Shown here: positions 20,656-25,148 of the stretch, in pieces
How the letters are laid out: every line of letters starts with the position of its first letter
Numbering within the stretch: the first letter of the stretch is position 1
Source: a virus
DNA: 28,368 nt
IMG/VR virus record: IMGVR_UViG_3300020200_000138
Location: 1 to 28,368 of that record
Reading direction: 5' to 3' (one strand)
Notes under the pieces: model-generated
What the model saw: only the letters and a program-made list of their open reading frames with translations
Told to the model about the DNA's origin: nothing
The model's database searches: none
Program-made: the position numbers and the translations under genes

Positions 20656-21707
20656 GCCCGCCTCCACACCCGCCACTCCGCCGCTGGCCATGACTTCGCC
20701 GGCAGGATCATATCCCTCAGCCGCGCCGGGGTCAGCGTCTCGGCGTAGAAGGCATGGTCGGCCAAAGCCCAGCCCGCGCGCGCGAAGATCGGCTCGGCCT
20801 CGGCGACCTTCCGGCCGATCCACATATCCCATGAATCGGGGACGTTCGTCTCGAAGATCCAGCGCACGTCGGCGTCACGGAATTGCTCGAGCAAGCGTCG
20901 CAAGTGCTCATCATCCATGCAGCCCGTGACACGGAACATGGTCACGACGTCGATCGGCGGCGTGGGCAGGATCTCGCGCCAGGGCGTAGCGCCGCACTGG
21001 TACACGTCGTCGGCATTGCCCAGCCCGGCAAGGTCCAGACACCGCCGCGTCGCGTCGACGCGCGCCGGTAGTGCGTCGCAGGCGAAAATGTCGAGACCTG
21101 GATATTGACCCTCGAGCCAAGTCGCCATCTCCCCGTAGCCGCAGCCGAAGTCGAGGATCGTCTTGAGGCTGCGGTGCGCGATCAATGTCTGCAACCGATG
21201 GAGCGCCGGGCAATCCTCGTGCTCGACCGCCCACTTCCTGGCACCCTCGATCAATTCCTGGTCGCTGCGCCCGCGCGTTACGGCCGAGTTGCTCGCCCAT
21301 GCCCCGGGGACCTTCGCCGGATCTCCCGGCCATGCATCACGCCATACATGGTAGAGCGGGTTCAGCGCATGCCAGATCGGATGCCCGGCATCGGGTCCGG
21401 ATTGGATCAACCTTCCTAACCCAGACCATGGCTCCACACCTTCGAGCAATGCCGCCGCGGCGAATATGCCGCTTTCCTCGGGACTGCCCAAGCCGGCCGC
21501 CTCGATTGCGCGGCGCCAGGGTGCGGGGGCATGTTCGGCAGCGTCGAGCAGAGCCATCGTCGTTTCGGCCGGCACGGTGCGGCTATCGGCCATCAGCCGA
21601 GCTAGGCGGAAGGCCGCCACGTAGCACGCCGCAGGGCCACGCTCGGCCAGCATCTTCTTGGCCTGGCGTGTCAGGCGGCGGAAGTCCGATTTTACGATCT
21701 GCGTCAC
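20652..21707 (-). CDS. Class I SAM-dependent methyltransferase
   Basis: I start it at a GTG (21707) that overlaps the preceding stop (GTGA) and follows GGAGG. The longer frame upstream overlaps the previous gene and is Arg/Gly-rich. The product has 351 residues. The first 170 or so are helical (IVKSDFRRLTRQAKKMLAER onward) with no known motif. The rest is a Rossmann methyltransferase: motif I TILDFGCGYGEMATWL, the acidic turn LDIFACDALPARVDATRR, motif IV-like PIDVVTMFRVTGCMDD and a late strand region WALADHAFYAETLTPARL. FETNVPDSWDMWIGRK follows motif IV. It does not look like a DNA base methylase. The substrate could be a small molecule, glycan or protein. Confidence 0.75.
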   Translation of the reverse strand: MTQIVKSDFRRLTRQAKKMLAERGPAACYVAAFRLARLMADSRTVPAETTMALLDAAEHAPAPWRRAIEAAGLGSPEESGIFAAAALLEGVEPWSGLGRLIQSGPDAGHPIWHALNPLYHVWRDAWPGDPAKVPGAWASNSAVTRGRSDQELIEGARKWAVEHEDCPALHRLQTLIAHRSLKTILDFGCGYGEMATWLEGQYPGLDIFACDALPARVDATRRCLDLAGLGNADDVYQCGATPWREILPTPPIDVVTMFRVTGCMDDEHLRRLLEQFRDADVRWIFETNVPDSWDMWIGRKVAEAEPIFARAGWALADHAFYAETLTPARLRDMILPAKSWPAAEWRVWRRA

Positions 21708-22432
21708 CTCCCGCCTCCCCGCCGGTTCAGCCGGCGCTCGTAGAGCTCGAGCCCCCGGCGCACGATCGCCGCCACCCTGACATGCCCCATCCCTCTCTCC
21801 GCGGCGATCGAGGCCAGCGAACGACCGTCGATCACCACGTCGATCACCACCGGCAGGGATAGCCGCTTTCGCTGCATTTCCTTTGTCCACGGCAGGTAGA
21901 CCTCGTGGTGCAGTCGGGCGAGCTTCTCGGGAATTGCGGCCCTGCCGCCGCCCGATCCGCGGAGCAGCGAGGCCGGCCGGGCGAACAGCCCAGCCGTGAC
22001 CGCCTCAAAAACCCGGCGCAGGGATTCGGCCGCCACCTTCAGGTGATCGTCGAGCTTCATCGCCGCGATCGGGTCGCGCCGCGCCGGATGGGCTGCCTGC
22101 ACCACGGCTTCCGGCGTCGGCCCGTAATCGTCCCTTTCGCTCGGCAGCCGCTTCGTCTTGCCGTATCGCTCCAGGAGCTGGTCGATATCGACCAGCCTGC
22201 GCTTTACTTCCGCGATGCGCTGGCCGATTCGCCGGAGAACGTCCGTGGTATCGGCTCTCGGCTGGTGCAGACGCTCGCCCTTGAGACGGAGATCCTTGGC
22301 CATGTCGCGCAGCTCCTGCGCCGCCGCCCGCCGCAAGTCTCGCAATCTGGTCAGCGCCCCCGGCTGGCAACGCGCGAGCCCGGCCTCGATCACCACCAGC
22401 GCTCCCGTCCAACCCTCGGCCGATCTCGCCAT
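21704..22432 (-). CDS. Helical protein with possible C-terminal HTH
   Basis: The ATG at 22432 (AGGCGG 7 bases upstream) gives 242 residues. A GTG two codons earlier is an alternative. The N-terminal half is helical and should coil (LRDLRRAAAQELRDMAKDLR, RIGQRIAEVKRRLVDIDQLL). A middle part has KLDDHLKVAAESLRRVFEAV. The end has RSLASIAAERGMGHVRVAAI and VRRGLELYERRL, which reads like a sigma-region-4 or resolvase-type HTH. It may be a transcription factor acting on later genes. That is inference from the HTH-like end and its place late in the early operon. Confidence 0.55.
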   Translation of the reverse strand: MARSAEGWTGALVVIEAGLARCQPGALTRLRDLRRAAAQELRDMAKDLRLKGERLHQPRADTTDVLRRIGQRIAEVKRRLVDIDQLLERYGKTKRLPSERDDYGPTPEAVVQAAHPARRDPIAAMKLDDHLKVAAESLRRVFEAVTAGLFARPASLLRGSGGGRAAIPEKLARLHHEVYLPWTKEMQRKRLSLPVVIDVVIDGRSLASIAAERGMGHVRVAAIVRRGLELYERRLNRRGGGR

Positions 22433-22443
22433 GGTCACGCCGC

Positions 22444-23418
22444 CTACTTGCCCCGTGGAGGGGAACCATCGTCAAGGCCGAACTCGGCCAGCAGCGCGGC
22501 GTCGATCCGGCAGTCCGGGCTGCCGGGCGGTGCCCCGCGGAAGTTGGGCCACGTCGCCGGGTCGGTCTTGAACCGTTCGAGATCGCGCCGCAGTCTTGCG
22601 AGATATTGAGGGGTTGGCTCCGGTTTTTTGTGCCTCGGATTCTTCGCGTCGATAGCGCCGCCGATTGCCGCGCGCAGCGCGTTGCGGTCCCACGCCCGGG
22701 CGGTTCCGTCCGCCAGAATGGTGCGGATTTCCTCAGCGGTCAGGCTTTTCAGGGCACCATCGATCAGCGCCCCTGCGGTGTCGTCACCGAGCTTGAACGA
22801 CTTGGCGAGCCTGATGAGCCGCTGTCGTTGTTCGCCGGCGTCCCTGAGCAACCAAATCGGAATCTTTTCGTCGTCGTCGTCGCGCGCGGATGAAGGAATA
22901 GACGACGACGATGTATTATCTATATGACTATGAGATATGACGCCCGCGCGCTCGCGCGCGCGAGGGCCACCATCAGGAGATTGATGTGTTTGAATTTGTT
23001 CCGCGATTTTTCCGACATTGCCCGATGATTGCCCGATCATCGCCCGATCATCGCCCGATGATTGGTCAATGATCGGGCAATCATCGGCCGATGATTGCCC
23101 GATCTTCCCAGGCATCGGCTCCTCCTGGGCGGCTTTTGCCATCTCGATTTCCATTCGCTTCTGGGTGATCCAGCCGTCGGTGGTGACGGCCAACTTGCCC
23201 TTGGTGAACAGCTCGCCGAGAATGCGCCGGAGTGTCCTCGGATTGGCCAGCGCGAGGTCGCGGCACAGGTTCTGTTCGTCCATCTTCAGACGCGCGTCGC
23301 GGTCCTGCATGAGCATGATGATGTCCCAATAGATACCCCTGGCCTCGGGCGACAGGACGCGCGTGCCGGTGAGCCAGTCCCGGGCGTAGGCTTTCAGATA
23401 CGGCCGGCGAGTGCTCAT
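22444..23418 (-). CDS. DUF1376-type replication protein with internal origin repeats
   Basis: The ATG at 23418 gives 324 residues. The upstream extension of the frame overlaps the preceding gene and is discarded. Residues 2-95 fit DUF1376: RPYLKAYARDWLTGTRVLSP, ARGIYWDIIMLMQDRD, then NPRTLRRILGELFTKGKL and DGWITQKRMEIEM. Such proteins are the winged-helix N-terminal part of phage replisome organisers. A linker (about 104-137) repeats GQSSxDD-like units and is encoded by the 11-bp iteron array. A charged stretch, then IPIWLLRDAGEQRQRLIRLA and a helical C-terminal domain (ALKSLTAEEIRTILADG) follow. It probably binds its own internal repeats and loads the host helicase, like lambda O. That is inference. 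Confidence 0.7.
   Translation of the reverse strand: MSTRRPYLKAYARDWLTGTRVLSPEARGIYWDIIMLMQDRDARLKMDEQNLCRDLALANPRTLRRILGELFTKGKLAVTTDGWITQKRMEIEMAKAAQEEPMPGKIGQSSADDCPIIDQSSGDDRAMIGQSSGNVGKIAEQIQTHQSPDGGPRARERAGVISHSHIDNTSSSSIPSSARDDDDEKIPIWLLRDAGEQRQRLIRLAKSFKLGDDTAGALIDGALKSLTAEEIRTILADGTARAWDRNALRAAIGGAIDAKNPRHKKPEPTPQYLARLRRDLERFKTDPATWPNFRGAPPGSPDCRIDAALLAEFGLDDGSPPRGK
23012..23104. other. Iteron array with 34-bp perfect palindrome: candidate replication origin
   Basis: Eight units of consensus CGAT(G/C)AT(T/C)GCC stand at exact 11-bp spacing from 23012 to 23099. Units 6 and 7 are in the opposite orientation. Bases 23071-23104 form a perfect 17+17 bp palindrome with no spacer, starting and ending with GATC. 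Four GATC sites fall in the array. An AT-rich run (22981-23010) lies directly beside it and another at 22908-22940, as expected for an unwinding element. Confidence 0.65.
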
Positions 23419-23443
23419 TGTCTCTGCGGTGCCCCGTTCGTCA

Positions 23444-23884
23444 TCACGCTGTCCTCCAAAACCGGACCCCGAACAGATCGCCCTCGCAGACCGACCGCGC
23501 GACGAACTCGCGGCCCAGCTTGCGCGCCACAGCGCGATAGCTGACATCCGACACCAGGACGCCGGGAACGAAGAAGCTGTCGCCGACCTCGAGTAGTCGC
23601 CAGGGGTAGGTATATTTCGGCTTGCGCGGCCCTGTACGGCCGCTCCTGGCGGGCGGGATGGGGATGCCCTTGGCGATCGGGAAGATGGCCCCAGGCGGCA
23701 ATTTCGGGCTGGCCAAGGCCGCCCGTCGAGGGGGCGACCTGTGGTAGTTGTGGGCCTGGCCCATCACCGTGAGGCGCGCGATCAGTGCCGGGGTGGTCGG
23801 CGGATGCGCGGCGATCCGCGCCCTCTGTTGCTCGGCCTGGTCGGGTCGGCGGGAGACCGGGCGTGTTTCGAGATGGCACGCCAC
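23444..23884 (-). CDS. Conserved small phage protein (YPWRxLEVGDSFFVP)
   Basis: A GTG at 23884 gives 146 residues. It lies 3 bases after the stop of the MazG-like frame. The C-terminal 60 residues (KYTYPWRLLEVGDSFFVPG, then VARKLGREFVARSVCEGD, ending LFGVRFWRT) match a family of small phage proteins of unknown role that often sit in replication modules. The N-terminal part is helical, then Pro-rich (LPPGAIFPIAKGIPIPPARS). A strand-rich C-terminal domain with a conserved GDSFF turn is likely. Its own function is unknown. The replication gene follows 25 bases after its stop. Confidence 0.7.
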   Translation of the reverse strand: MACHLETRPVSRRPDQAEQQRARIAAHPPTTPALIARLTVMGQAHNYHRSPPRRAALASPKLPPGAIFPIAKGIPIPPARSGRTGPRKPKYTYPWRLLEVGDSFFVPGVLVSDVSYRAVARKLGREFVARSVCEGDLFGVRFWRTA

Positions 23885-23887
23885 GGG

Positions 23888-24207
23888 TTATCCACATCCG
23901 CTACGCTTACGGAACGCCGCACTTGGCCCACGCGCTTGAGCCAATAGCCGCGCCGCAACAGCACTCAATTGGCACGCCTCTTTTGCTATTGCGACCATGT
24001 CGTTGGCGTGGATCGCGGCGCGAAGTTCGTCCCATTCCTCACTCAGCACGCCGAGAGCCTCATGCGTGCTGGTGAAAGAGCCGAACTTGCTTTCTGCCCG
24101 CGCCGCCTCGTCGCGCTCGTCAGCAAGGCGTCGCTGACACCATATTGGGCTGCGACGAATGCCTTCACCCTAGCGATCGATGGCGGCACGGCCGATTGGA
24201 TTGTCAC
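23888..24207 (-). pseudogene. MazG-like protein gene, split by an apparent frameshift
   Basis: A GTG at 24207 with GGAGG 4 bases upstream opens MTIQSAVPPSIARVKAFVAA and QYGVSDALLTSATRR, but this frame stops at 24043. A second frame, open from 24169 to its stop at 23888, encodes RRLADERDEAARAESKFGS, then HEALGVLSEEWDELRAAI and ANDMVAIAKEACQLSAVAAR. This is a MazG-like nucleotide pyrophosphohydrolase pattern, with EEWDE matching EExxE. The second frame has no good start codon of its own. So either one base has been gained or lost, or ribosomes shift by -1 (no classic slippery heptamer seen). The first frame resembles a short DnaA-like HTH, so two overlapping genes are also possible. Confidence 0.55.
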
Positions 24208-24251
24208 GCTTCCTCCTTCTGCTGCTTGGCTTGGTCAGATAGAGAAGGAGG

Positions 24252-25148
24252 TCATTGGGCCGCGCTCCCCATCACGAATTTTTCCTGACGATCGAGCGCA
24301 TCCAGATATCTCACCGCTTGGCGGAAATACGAATCCTTCAACTCCACGCCGATAAAGCGCCGCCCGAGCTTGAGCGCGCAGTGTCCTTCGCTGCCGATAC
24401 CCATGAACGGCGATAGCACTACATCGTCTGGGTTGCTCCACATGATGAGCGCGCGGTCGATCACGTCGAGCTGCAACGGGCACAGGTGGCGCTCATCGTG
24501 GGCATCGCGCGCCGCCTTGACATTCAGCACATTGGTCTGGTTGACCGTCATCCACACGGGCGATGCCCACTCTTGCCATTGATCGAGCGGGAAGTCCTCA
24601 GGCGTATGTGCGATAGGCTCCGAATTCTCGCCCGGCTTGATGAAGGTCATCAGGTAGTCCGGCATTCCGCCGCGCGACTTGCTGCTGTCCTTGCGGAGTT
24701 GCTTGTAAAGCAAACCGACATGCTTGGTGCGCGTCATTTCAACGACTGGGTCGCGCCAGATCGTGCGCCTCCCGTGGTAAATCCATCCGGCCCTAGTGTG
24801 AATATTGATGATCTGGCCGCTGAAATCTTTGATGCCGACCGCGCCGTCTTTCCATTTGGTCTGAGGCAAATCCGAGCAATGTACGACGGTCAAACGACCA
24901 GCTTTCGTCACGCGAAGTTTCTCGGCAACCATAAAAGCGTAGTGTCGCGCGAACTCGTCGTCATCGGCGCTGTTGCCCATATCGGCCGCCGATTCGCTGT
25001 AGACAAACAACGACCCGAAGGGGGGGGAGTAGACTGAAAAGTCGATGCTATTGGCCGGCAGGTAGCGCAACACGTCACAGCAATCGCCGTGGTAGGCCGA
25101 CCAATTCTTACCGTGCGCCTCGTCCAAGCACTTCACTTTGCCAGCCAT
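24252..25148 (-). CDS. Beta-class DNA methyltransferase (probably N4-cytosine or N6-adenine)
   Basis: The 298-residue protein has the motif order of beta-class amino-methyltransferases. Catalytic motif IV is SPPFGS (41-46) near the N-terminus, and the SAM-binding motif I is VLSPFMGIGSEGHCALKLGR (about 244-263), followed by RFIGVELKDSYF. SPP rather than DPP favours N4-cytosine. Between them lies a variable part (KHVGLLYKQLRKDSSKSRGG) that may read the target site. No restriction enzyme is nearby, so it likely protects phage DNA or alters regulation. Its start overlaps the helicase gene by 16 bases. The codons for SPP contain a run of eight C. GC content is below that of the flanking genes. Confidence 0.87.
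   Translation of the reverse strand: MAGKVKCLDEAHGKNWSAYHGDCCDVLRYLPANSIDFSVYSPPFGSLFVYSESAADMGNSADDDEFARHYAFMVAEKLRVTKAGRLTVVHCSDLPQTKWKDGAVGIKDFSGQIINIHTRAGWIYHGRRTIWRDPVVEMTRTKHVGLLYKQLRKDSSKSRGGMPDYLMTFIKPGENSEPIAHTPEDFPLDQWQEWASPVWMTVNQTNVLNVKAARDAHDERHLCPLQLDVIDRALIMWSNPDDVVLSPFMGIGSEGHCALKLGRRFIGVELKDSYFRQAVRYLDALDRQEKFVMGSAAQ

Follow-up and report, generated by a model that had tools for sequence, protein, structure and literature searches.

Introduction

What does an array of evenly spaced 11-bp repeats do inside a protein-coding gene of a phage, and is it kept as DNA or through the peptide that it encodes? The question is raised by the virus record IMGVR_UViG_3300020200_000138 of IMG/VR, analysed here over its whole length of 28,368 bases (hereafter the window), which by eye has a tailed-phage-like gene set with terminase-, portal- and tail-like genes. 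The array lies in a gene for a DUF1376 protein. DUF1376 is still catalogued as having 'unknown function', yet it is widespread in phages and prophages of alpha- and gammaproteobacteria, including the Rac prophage of Escherichia coli.

The DUF1376 gene and its protein

The start of the protein was set by homology, replacing a mechanical open reading frame start at 23547 (Table 1). The DUF1376 profile scores 32.6 bits in the long reading frame and 33.0 bits in the homology-trimmed coding sequence, against a curated cut-off of 30.1, and is the sole Pfam family matched by the protein at E ≤ 0.01. The PHROG label is 'primosomal protein' (1.7e-13). NCBIfam has no match for the protein, and a search of the sequences of solved structures gave one match (E = 0.061) that was taken as irrelevant. 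By tblastn the window protein found no phage record at 1e-5; six, the best at 7e-6, were matched when the protein was trimmed by homology and the limit relaxed. No close comparison is possible, because the subfamily of the window protein holds just one other contig, which is near-identical. This 12,163-base contig (IMGVR_UViG_3300020193_001210, VGYC01000213.1; L002, L018) has five mismatches to the window; VGYC01000213.1 is filed in a Planctomycetota MAG from the sample 'Offshore_120m', which may be a binning error or a hint of the host.

Residues 100–187, between the two predicted domains of Table 1, are predicted by AlphaFold2 to be disordered, which agrees with an earlier reading of the window, made from sequence only, that had put the repeats in a linker of the DUF1376 protein. 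Foldseek with the winged helix returned nothing at E ≤ 0.001. The VIA-align matches of this domain were 4pql (Z 9.0, rmsd 2.4, 75 residues aligned), 4pt7 (8.8) and 5kbj (8.7), with ORC2 and LexA tied; the domain of the phiLM21 type matched 4pql with Z 8.0. The best Z values of the two comparisons, 9.0 and 8.4, are little above background. The match of the modelled winged helix to the N-domains of pSK41-type initiators is a hint only.

Table 1. Features in and around the DUF1376 gene (positions in the window; a dot marks features without strand)
Feature	Position	Strand	Remarks
DUF1376 protein coding sequence, proposed replication initiator	22444..23418	-	324 aa; Pfam PF07120; start by homology
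Winged-helix domain, residues 12-99	23122..23385	-	AlphaFold2 pLDDT ~94-97 over most; initiator winged helices among VIA-align matches
C-terminal helical domain, residues 188-285	22564..22857	-	AlphaFold2, moderate confidence
Array of eight 11-bp units, proposed initiator-binding iterons	23017..23104	-	encodes residues ~105-134, in disordered linker
Degenerate ninth unit, array end	23006..23016	-	in register, 11-bp spacing
Perfect 34-bp palindrome from units 1-3 (gene direction)	23071..23104	.	longest in window; next 20 and 14 bp
A-rich low-stability DNA, possible unwinding element	22980..23012	-	directly adjoins array
AT-rich segment, possible unwinding element	22898..22938	-	second least stable 41-mer, 64% GC window
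Perfect 14-bp GC palindrome CTCGCGCGCGCGAG between unstable segments	22951..22964	.	tied third-longest in window

The 11-bp array

Each unit is a 10-bp quasi-palindrome, ATYGSSCRAT, with one spacer base (S), and the units start at 23017, 23028, 23039, 23050, 23061, 23072, 23083 and 23094, at a spacing of exactly 11 bp. The consensus was derived from the array itself; it is exact in seven of the eight units, and that at 23061 has one mismatch. Since ATYGSSCRAT is its own reverse complement, a single scan covers both strands, and no exact copy occurs outside the array in the 28,368 bases. With up to three mismatches allowed, the pattern search gave seven matches, all within the array, compared with a mean of 0.55 and a maximum of three over 100 dinucleotide-shuffled sequences. 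Tandem Repeats Finder and a repeat search agree on the array, with periods of 11, 22 and 33, and its dyad symmetry is above that of column-permuted arrays (p = 0.005). Eight 11-bp iterons at exact spacing within the gene had been claimed for 23012–23104; they are real, with 23017 as their proper first position.

In Rfam the array has matches (MIR4387, MIR2600 and others) that fall far short of the gathering scores; these arise from its inverted repeats and were rejected. A search of viral contigs with the window-unit pattern gave nine stretches, one of them in the near-identical contig and seven of them single matches that were taken for chance. The ninth is at L008:47-80, where three window-type units (GATCGCCCGATCATCGCCCGATCATCGCCCGATC) stand in apparently non-coding DNA near one end of another viral locus. 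Elsewhere in the window, two perfect copies of a 108-bp repeat (1376-1590) lie in a probable tail or appendage gene (849-2576).

Selection on DNA or on peptide

The array was scored against a synonymous null, in which codons were permuted with the protein and the codon usage kept (4000 draws). The period-11 score of 38.5 was reached in none of the permutations, the top null value being 22.5. A repeated peptide could give rise to the period-33 score, and four of the 4000 permutations attained it. The units fall in all three reading frames, as the sequence-only reading had stated for successive units. The encoded peptide also repeats, every 11 residues (GQSSADD, DQSSGDD, GQSSGNV), and this would be expected if the peptide were selected and the DNA repeat a by-product. 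Such an explanation is already contradicted and has practically no probability: the DNA repeats at 11 bp over three frames, no synonymous permutation attains the score, the linker is predicted to be disordered, and the DNA units of relatives encode unrelated peptides or stand in shifted frames. The first unit is in other than the usual frame in five of the 34 genes with units of the TGCNNNNGCA type (see below), L055 being the clearest case. The array is genuine, and selection acts on it as DNA; the peptide is the by-product, as had been proposed. Relatives that keep the peptide repeat without the DNA repeat had been named as counter-evidence, and the opposite was found, namely an 11-bp DNA period that is kept while units and peptides differ.

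Arrays in related DUF1376 genes

The first lead was phiLM21, in which another unit forms an 11-bp array at this place in the gene. DUF1376 genes were drawn from IMG/VR and from named phage records, giving 93 genes after dereplication, in which 72 genes were reduced to 57 and 22 of 80 gammaproteobacterial loci were retained. Eleven short genes without room for a linker (<480 nt; L087, L089, L093–L101), the window duplicate L092 and L123 (279 nt) were dropped before the counts; L093–L101 (~140 aa) end ahead of the linker, so that an embedded array is impossible in them. In L035, L085 and L090, which are short DUF1376 genes without a linker array, the later part is by eye HNH nuclease-like.

Period-11 DNA is above the gene's own synonymous null at p ≤ 0.01 in 35 of the 93 genes, which are related to each other and so do not make 35 independent events, and in none of 75 control reading frames (dereplicated other reading frames of the same loci). 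Three of ten named phage genes pass at this level (Mcat18, PfDIW6 and the Plectonema phage). Periods 8 and 9 are found in none of the 93 genes; periods 5, 6, 7, 10, 12 and 14 are also raised, which is read as due to 5–7-bp repeats just downstream. Arrays start mostly at gene nt 353–408, just behind the winged helix. By the unit definition no array is recognisable in 31 of the 93 genes, including E. coli ydaU, in which there are only degenerate GTTC/GTTG-type sites, spaced mostly by 33, 12 and 11 bp. A design in which the DUF1376 gene contains an origin-like array of iterons is widespread, and the window array is an example of it. Since the repeats of relatives differ while spacing and place are the same, the gene probably encodes both a protein that starts replication and the site at which it starts.

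In three related genes (L080, L082, L084) a 23-bp period stands ahead of the array, at gene nt 260–295.

Unstable DNA and palindromes

AT-rich DNA next to the array had been noted from the letters, and the stability profile of the window confirms it: duplex instability reaches the 99.4th percentile at 22980–23020, and a second such segment follows at 22898–22938 (Table 1). In relatives the gene is at its least stable 30–60 nt past the first unit, where mean instability percentiles are 89–96 in 27 genes with A-type units and 83–93 in 34 genes with T-type units. The unstable stretch of relatives holds repeats of 5–7 bp (CCAGAAG, GATACA, AGAAG and others), and behind these a perfect hairpin with a C(TNNC)G loop is present in 23 of the 93 genes (codon-shuffled mean 0.02); the window has a GC-alternating hairpin instead. 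Two features of an iteron-type theta origin are present, spaced copies of one site within a candidate initiator gene and adjoining DNA of low stability.

In L116, L119 and L120 (nt ~330–490) repeats seemingly flank an A-rich tract, CAAAGTGRCGA-like upstream and AATGC-type downstream, which is perhaps a two-array origin. Downstream of its units, L066 has a hairpin whose stem is 13 bp long and perfect (gene nt ~396–510).

The 34-bp palindrome consists of three consecutive units, one forward, one self-complementary and one reverse, and the single-strand DNA fold of 23012–23104 has z = -6.5. The same interval holds four GATC sites (23035, 23046, 23071, 23101). The sequence-only reading had counted the palindrome, with possible cruciform extrusion, and the GATC sites as parts of the system. 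The palindrome is perfect and the sites are there, but neither is a general feature: at gene nt 320–420 a palindrome longer than 18 bp occurs in no other of the 93 DUF1376 genes, and any GATC in just seven of them. Because relatives have no such palindrome and mostly no GATC, ideas of a cruciform or of Dam-like control concern this phage at most, and palindrome, cruciform and GATC were rejected as conserved functional elements. A check of GC skew, which had also been suggested, gave no clear turn at the array. A 20-bp perfect palindrome (22177-22196) lies in the gene at 21704-22438, downstream of the DUF1376 gene.

Replication genes beside DUF1376 genes

A gene for a DnaB-type helicase adjoins the DUF1376 gene in Pkon1, phiLM21, an Azospirillum plasmid and Acinetobacter and Plectonema phages. 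The neighbour is a DnaC-like or helicase-loader gene in E. coli phage 683R6, PfDIW6 and AH02, and a gene for a DnaA-like protein in phiLM21 and RHph_TM3_3_3. Among 59 members searched at E ≤ 0.01, all of which match the DUF1376 profile, six have the Pfam DnaT domain (best 3.7e-16). In the window no DnaB- or DnaC-like gene was recognised among ten proteins scanned, and the downstream gene (21704–22438) has no family match.

These neighbours bear on two further explanations. The units may be operator sites for the DUF1376 protein or for another phage regulator, controlling transcription of the replication operon and not initiation. Arrays of quasi-palindromes suit regulators too, winged-helix proteins are often repressors, the structure matches include LexA and MntR types, and one protein may serve as both regulator and initiator. 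The sites, however, are in the middle of the gene, ~310–400 nt past its start codon, and a search of 22300–24300 gave neither promoter-like nor terminator-like sites. Initiation also agrees better with the helicase, loader and DnaT features of the neighbourhood and with the unstable DNA that adjoins the array in 61 genes. Control of transcription is held to be an unlikely function. Alternatively, another kind of DNA signal, such as a partition, packaging or recombination site, may just happen to sit in a DUF1376 gene, given that iterated sites also act as centromeres and that the 34-bp palindrome could extrude a cruciform. This we regard as extremely improbable, since in many different phages the site goes along with a gene of replication type, beside helicase or loader genes, and no ParA/ParB-like gene was recognised beside the array in the window.

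Unit types, peptide motifs and cassette exchange

Units could be typed in 62 of the 93 genes (27 A, 34 T and one W, the window), and the types have a common design, a 10-bp dyad plus one base. The A-type unit, AACGNNCGTT plus C, is found in the phiLM21 group, a Moraxella phage, and Pseudomonas-type and other gammaproteobacterial prophages; the T-type unit, TGCNNNNGCA plus A, in most alphaproteobacterial members. Dyad symmetry is above that of column-permuted arrays in some relatives and shows no excess in L054, L064, L157, L166 and Pkon1; a combined p value was not used, because it treats related genes as independent.

The unit type goes with the peptide just after the winged helix, which is of the AG[KRI]xSAxx type with AACGNNCGTT units and xxRW with TGCNNNNGCA units. 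Among the classified genes of the tree set the match of unit type and motif is complete (27 of 27 and 31 of 31). The unit types (A, T, W) and the widened pattern for the motif were defined after the sequences were seen; the stricter first pattern gave a table of 23/0/0/34, with four A-type genes unmatched. On a tree of the first 90 residues, made without seven rows (L035, L073, L077, L081, L085, L086, L090), each of the two labels needs four changes, and a sign test is powerless, since there is just one independent pair on starred branches. In the domain model of the phiLM21 type the motif is placed, with low confidence, on a helix that continues from the winged helix.

This coupling also bears on the origin of the repeats. 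A functionless minisatellite could be imagined, with slippage having multiplied an 11-bp unit where the linker accepts any peptide, as linkers are permissive and some of the downstream 5–7-bp repeats (GATACA, AGAAG) look slippage-like. It is nonetheless very unlikely, since the 11-bp spacing is constant while the unit sequence changes wholly between subfamilies, the units are dyad-symmetric and constant in their place in the gene, the 75 control reading frames are without period 11, and unit type is coupled to peptide motif.

The winged helix does not decide the unit type, as L031 and L041 are 96% identical in this domain and of opposite type. At the DNA level L031 and L037 are 73–97% identical up to nt 298, ~45% between nt 298 and 387, and 83–100% from there through nt 447, and L083 has the cassette of L030 (90–100%) in an L039-like body (70–100% before it, 80–100% from nt 420). 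By these comparisons, a block of ~90 bp with both motif and units has moved between genes that are otherwise homologous. As the two lie side by side in the DNA, their joint exchange could be plain linkage without function. In E. coli, among the 30 of 1492 records listed, matches to ydaU break at nt 495/497 and also near nt 601; at nt 495/497 the first part is found with another C-domain and the second with another N-domain, and these breaks are in line with a module made of N-domain and origin.

A broader proposal, which we hold to stand evenly between right and wrong, concerns the DUF1376/YdaU genes found in proteobacterial phages. In these genes a stretch of ~90 bp would act as a portable specificity cassette, encoding a short basic helix (AG[KRI]xSAxx or xxRW type) beside the 11-bp iterons that it reads. 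One recombination would then re-key initiator and origin together and give a new compatibility group, with the winged helix, the 5–7-bp melting repeats and the helicase-recruiting C-domain unchanged; the window would have a third key, so far unique.

A proposed mechanism and its meaning

The array is, we infer, likely to be the iteron set of a phage replication origin embedded in the gene of its own putative initiator. The binding sites of the DUF1376 protein would be the 10-bp quasi-palindromic units, which come once per helical turn and so all face the same side of the DNA. Once assembled, the complex might melt the unstable DNA just downstream, at 22980–23012 and/or 22898–22938, and the C-terminal domain could bring in a helicase or helicase loader. 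The linker peptide would be whatever the origin happens to encode.

If this is true, the initiator is named and the origin pinpointed for a large set of phages from sequence alone, and a predictor is gained, consisting of an 11-bp dyad array in the linker together with unstable DNA. There would also be a natural system in which binding specificity and its target are swapped as one short block, and the co-evolution of initiator and origin could be addressed through swaps of ~90 bp.

Comparison with known systems

A DUF1376 gene of a well-known prophage is ydaU of Rac in E. coli K-12, at 1421119-1421976 in MG1655. It adjoins ydaV, the counterpart of which in phage 683R6 is annotated as DnaC-like. 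Rac has been reported to have an active origin, oriJ (PMC3945230). Unlike the window array, the repeats of ydaU are degenerate. In the library searched, DUF1376 is named once in each of five papers, and ydaU together with replication in nine; the single paper found by combining these names with iterons and initiators mentions neither of them.

In phage lambda the origin consists of iterons and an AT-rich tract in the middle of gene O, and in lambda and Stx phages the number of iterons varies between relatives and alters the length of the O protein (PMC7466680). The window resembles lambda in having iterons in the middle of the coding sequence of a putative initiator, with AT-rich DNA alongside, and the likeness to the lambda origin, with different units, that the first reading had drawn holds as an analogy. 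No sequence homology to lambda O was found, the window protein matching in Pfam only DUF1376 at E ≤ 0.01. The iterons of lambda are ~18–19 bp, whereas those of the window are 10-bp quasi-palindromes at 11-bp spacing, and in DUF1376 genes the specificity peptide and the iterons are encoded within ~90 bp. No helicase-loader gene is recognised next to the window gene, unlike in lambda, and loader, DnaB and DnaA-like neighbours occur in relatives.

The N-domain encoded by rep of plasmid pSK41 is a winged helix that binds four Rep boxes located centrally in the gene; the origin encodes the linker between it and a distinct C-domain, and in the chimera pPR9 N-domain and origin were swapped against the C-domain (PMC5703833). 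Iterons of RepA_N systems are described as semi-palindromic direct repeats (PMC7145576). Like pSK41 rep, the window gene has a predicted winged-helix N-domain, a central array of candidate sites, a linker, here predicted to be disordered, and a separate C-domain, and pSK41-type N-domains are among the best VIA-align matches to the DUF1376 winged helix, tied with ORC2 and LexA. It differs from RepA_N systems in that none of 59 DUF1376 members has a Pfam RepA_N match at E ≤ 0.01, and in that exchange in DUF1376 genes can involve only the motif behind the winged helix and the iterons, not the winged helix. By analogy, the window system is best read as one that works like lambda O/ori and pSK41 rep and is by sequence a member of neither.
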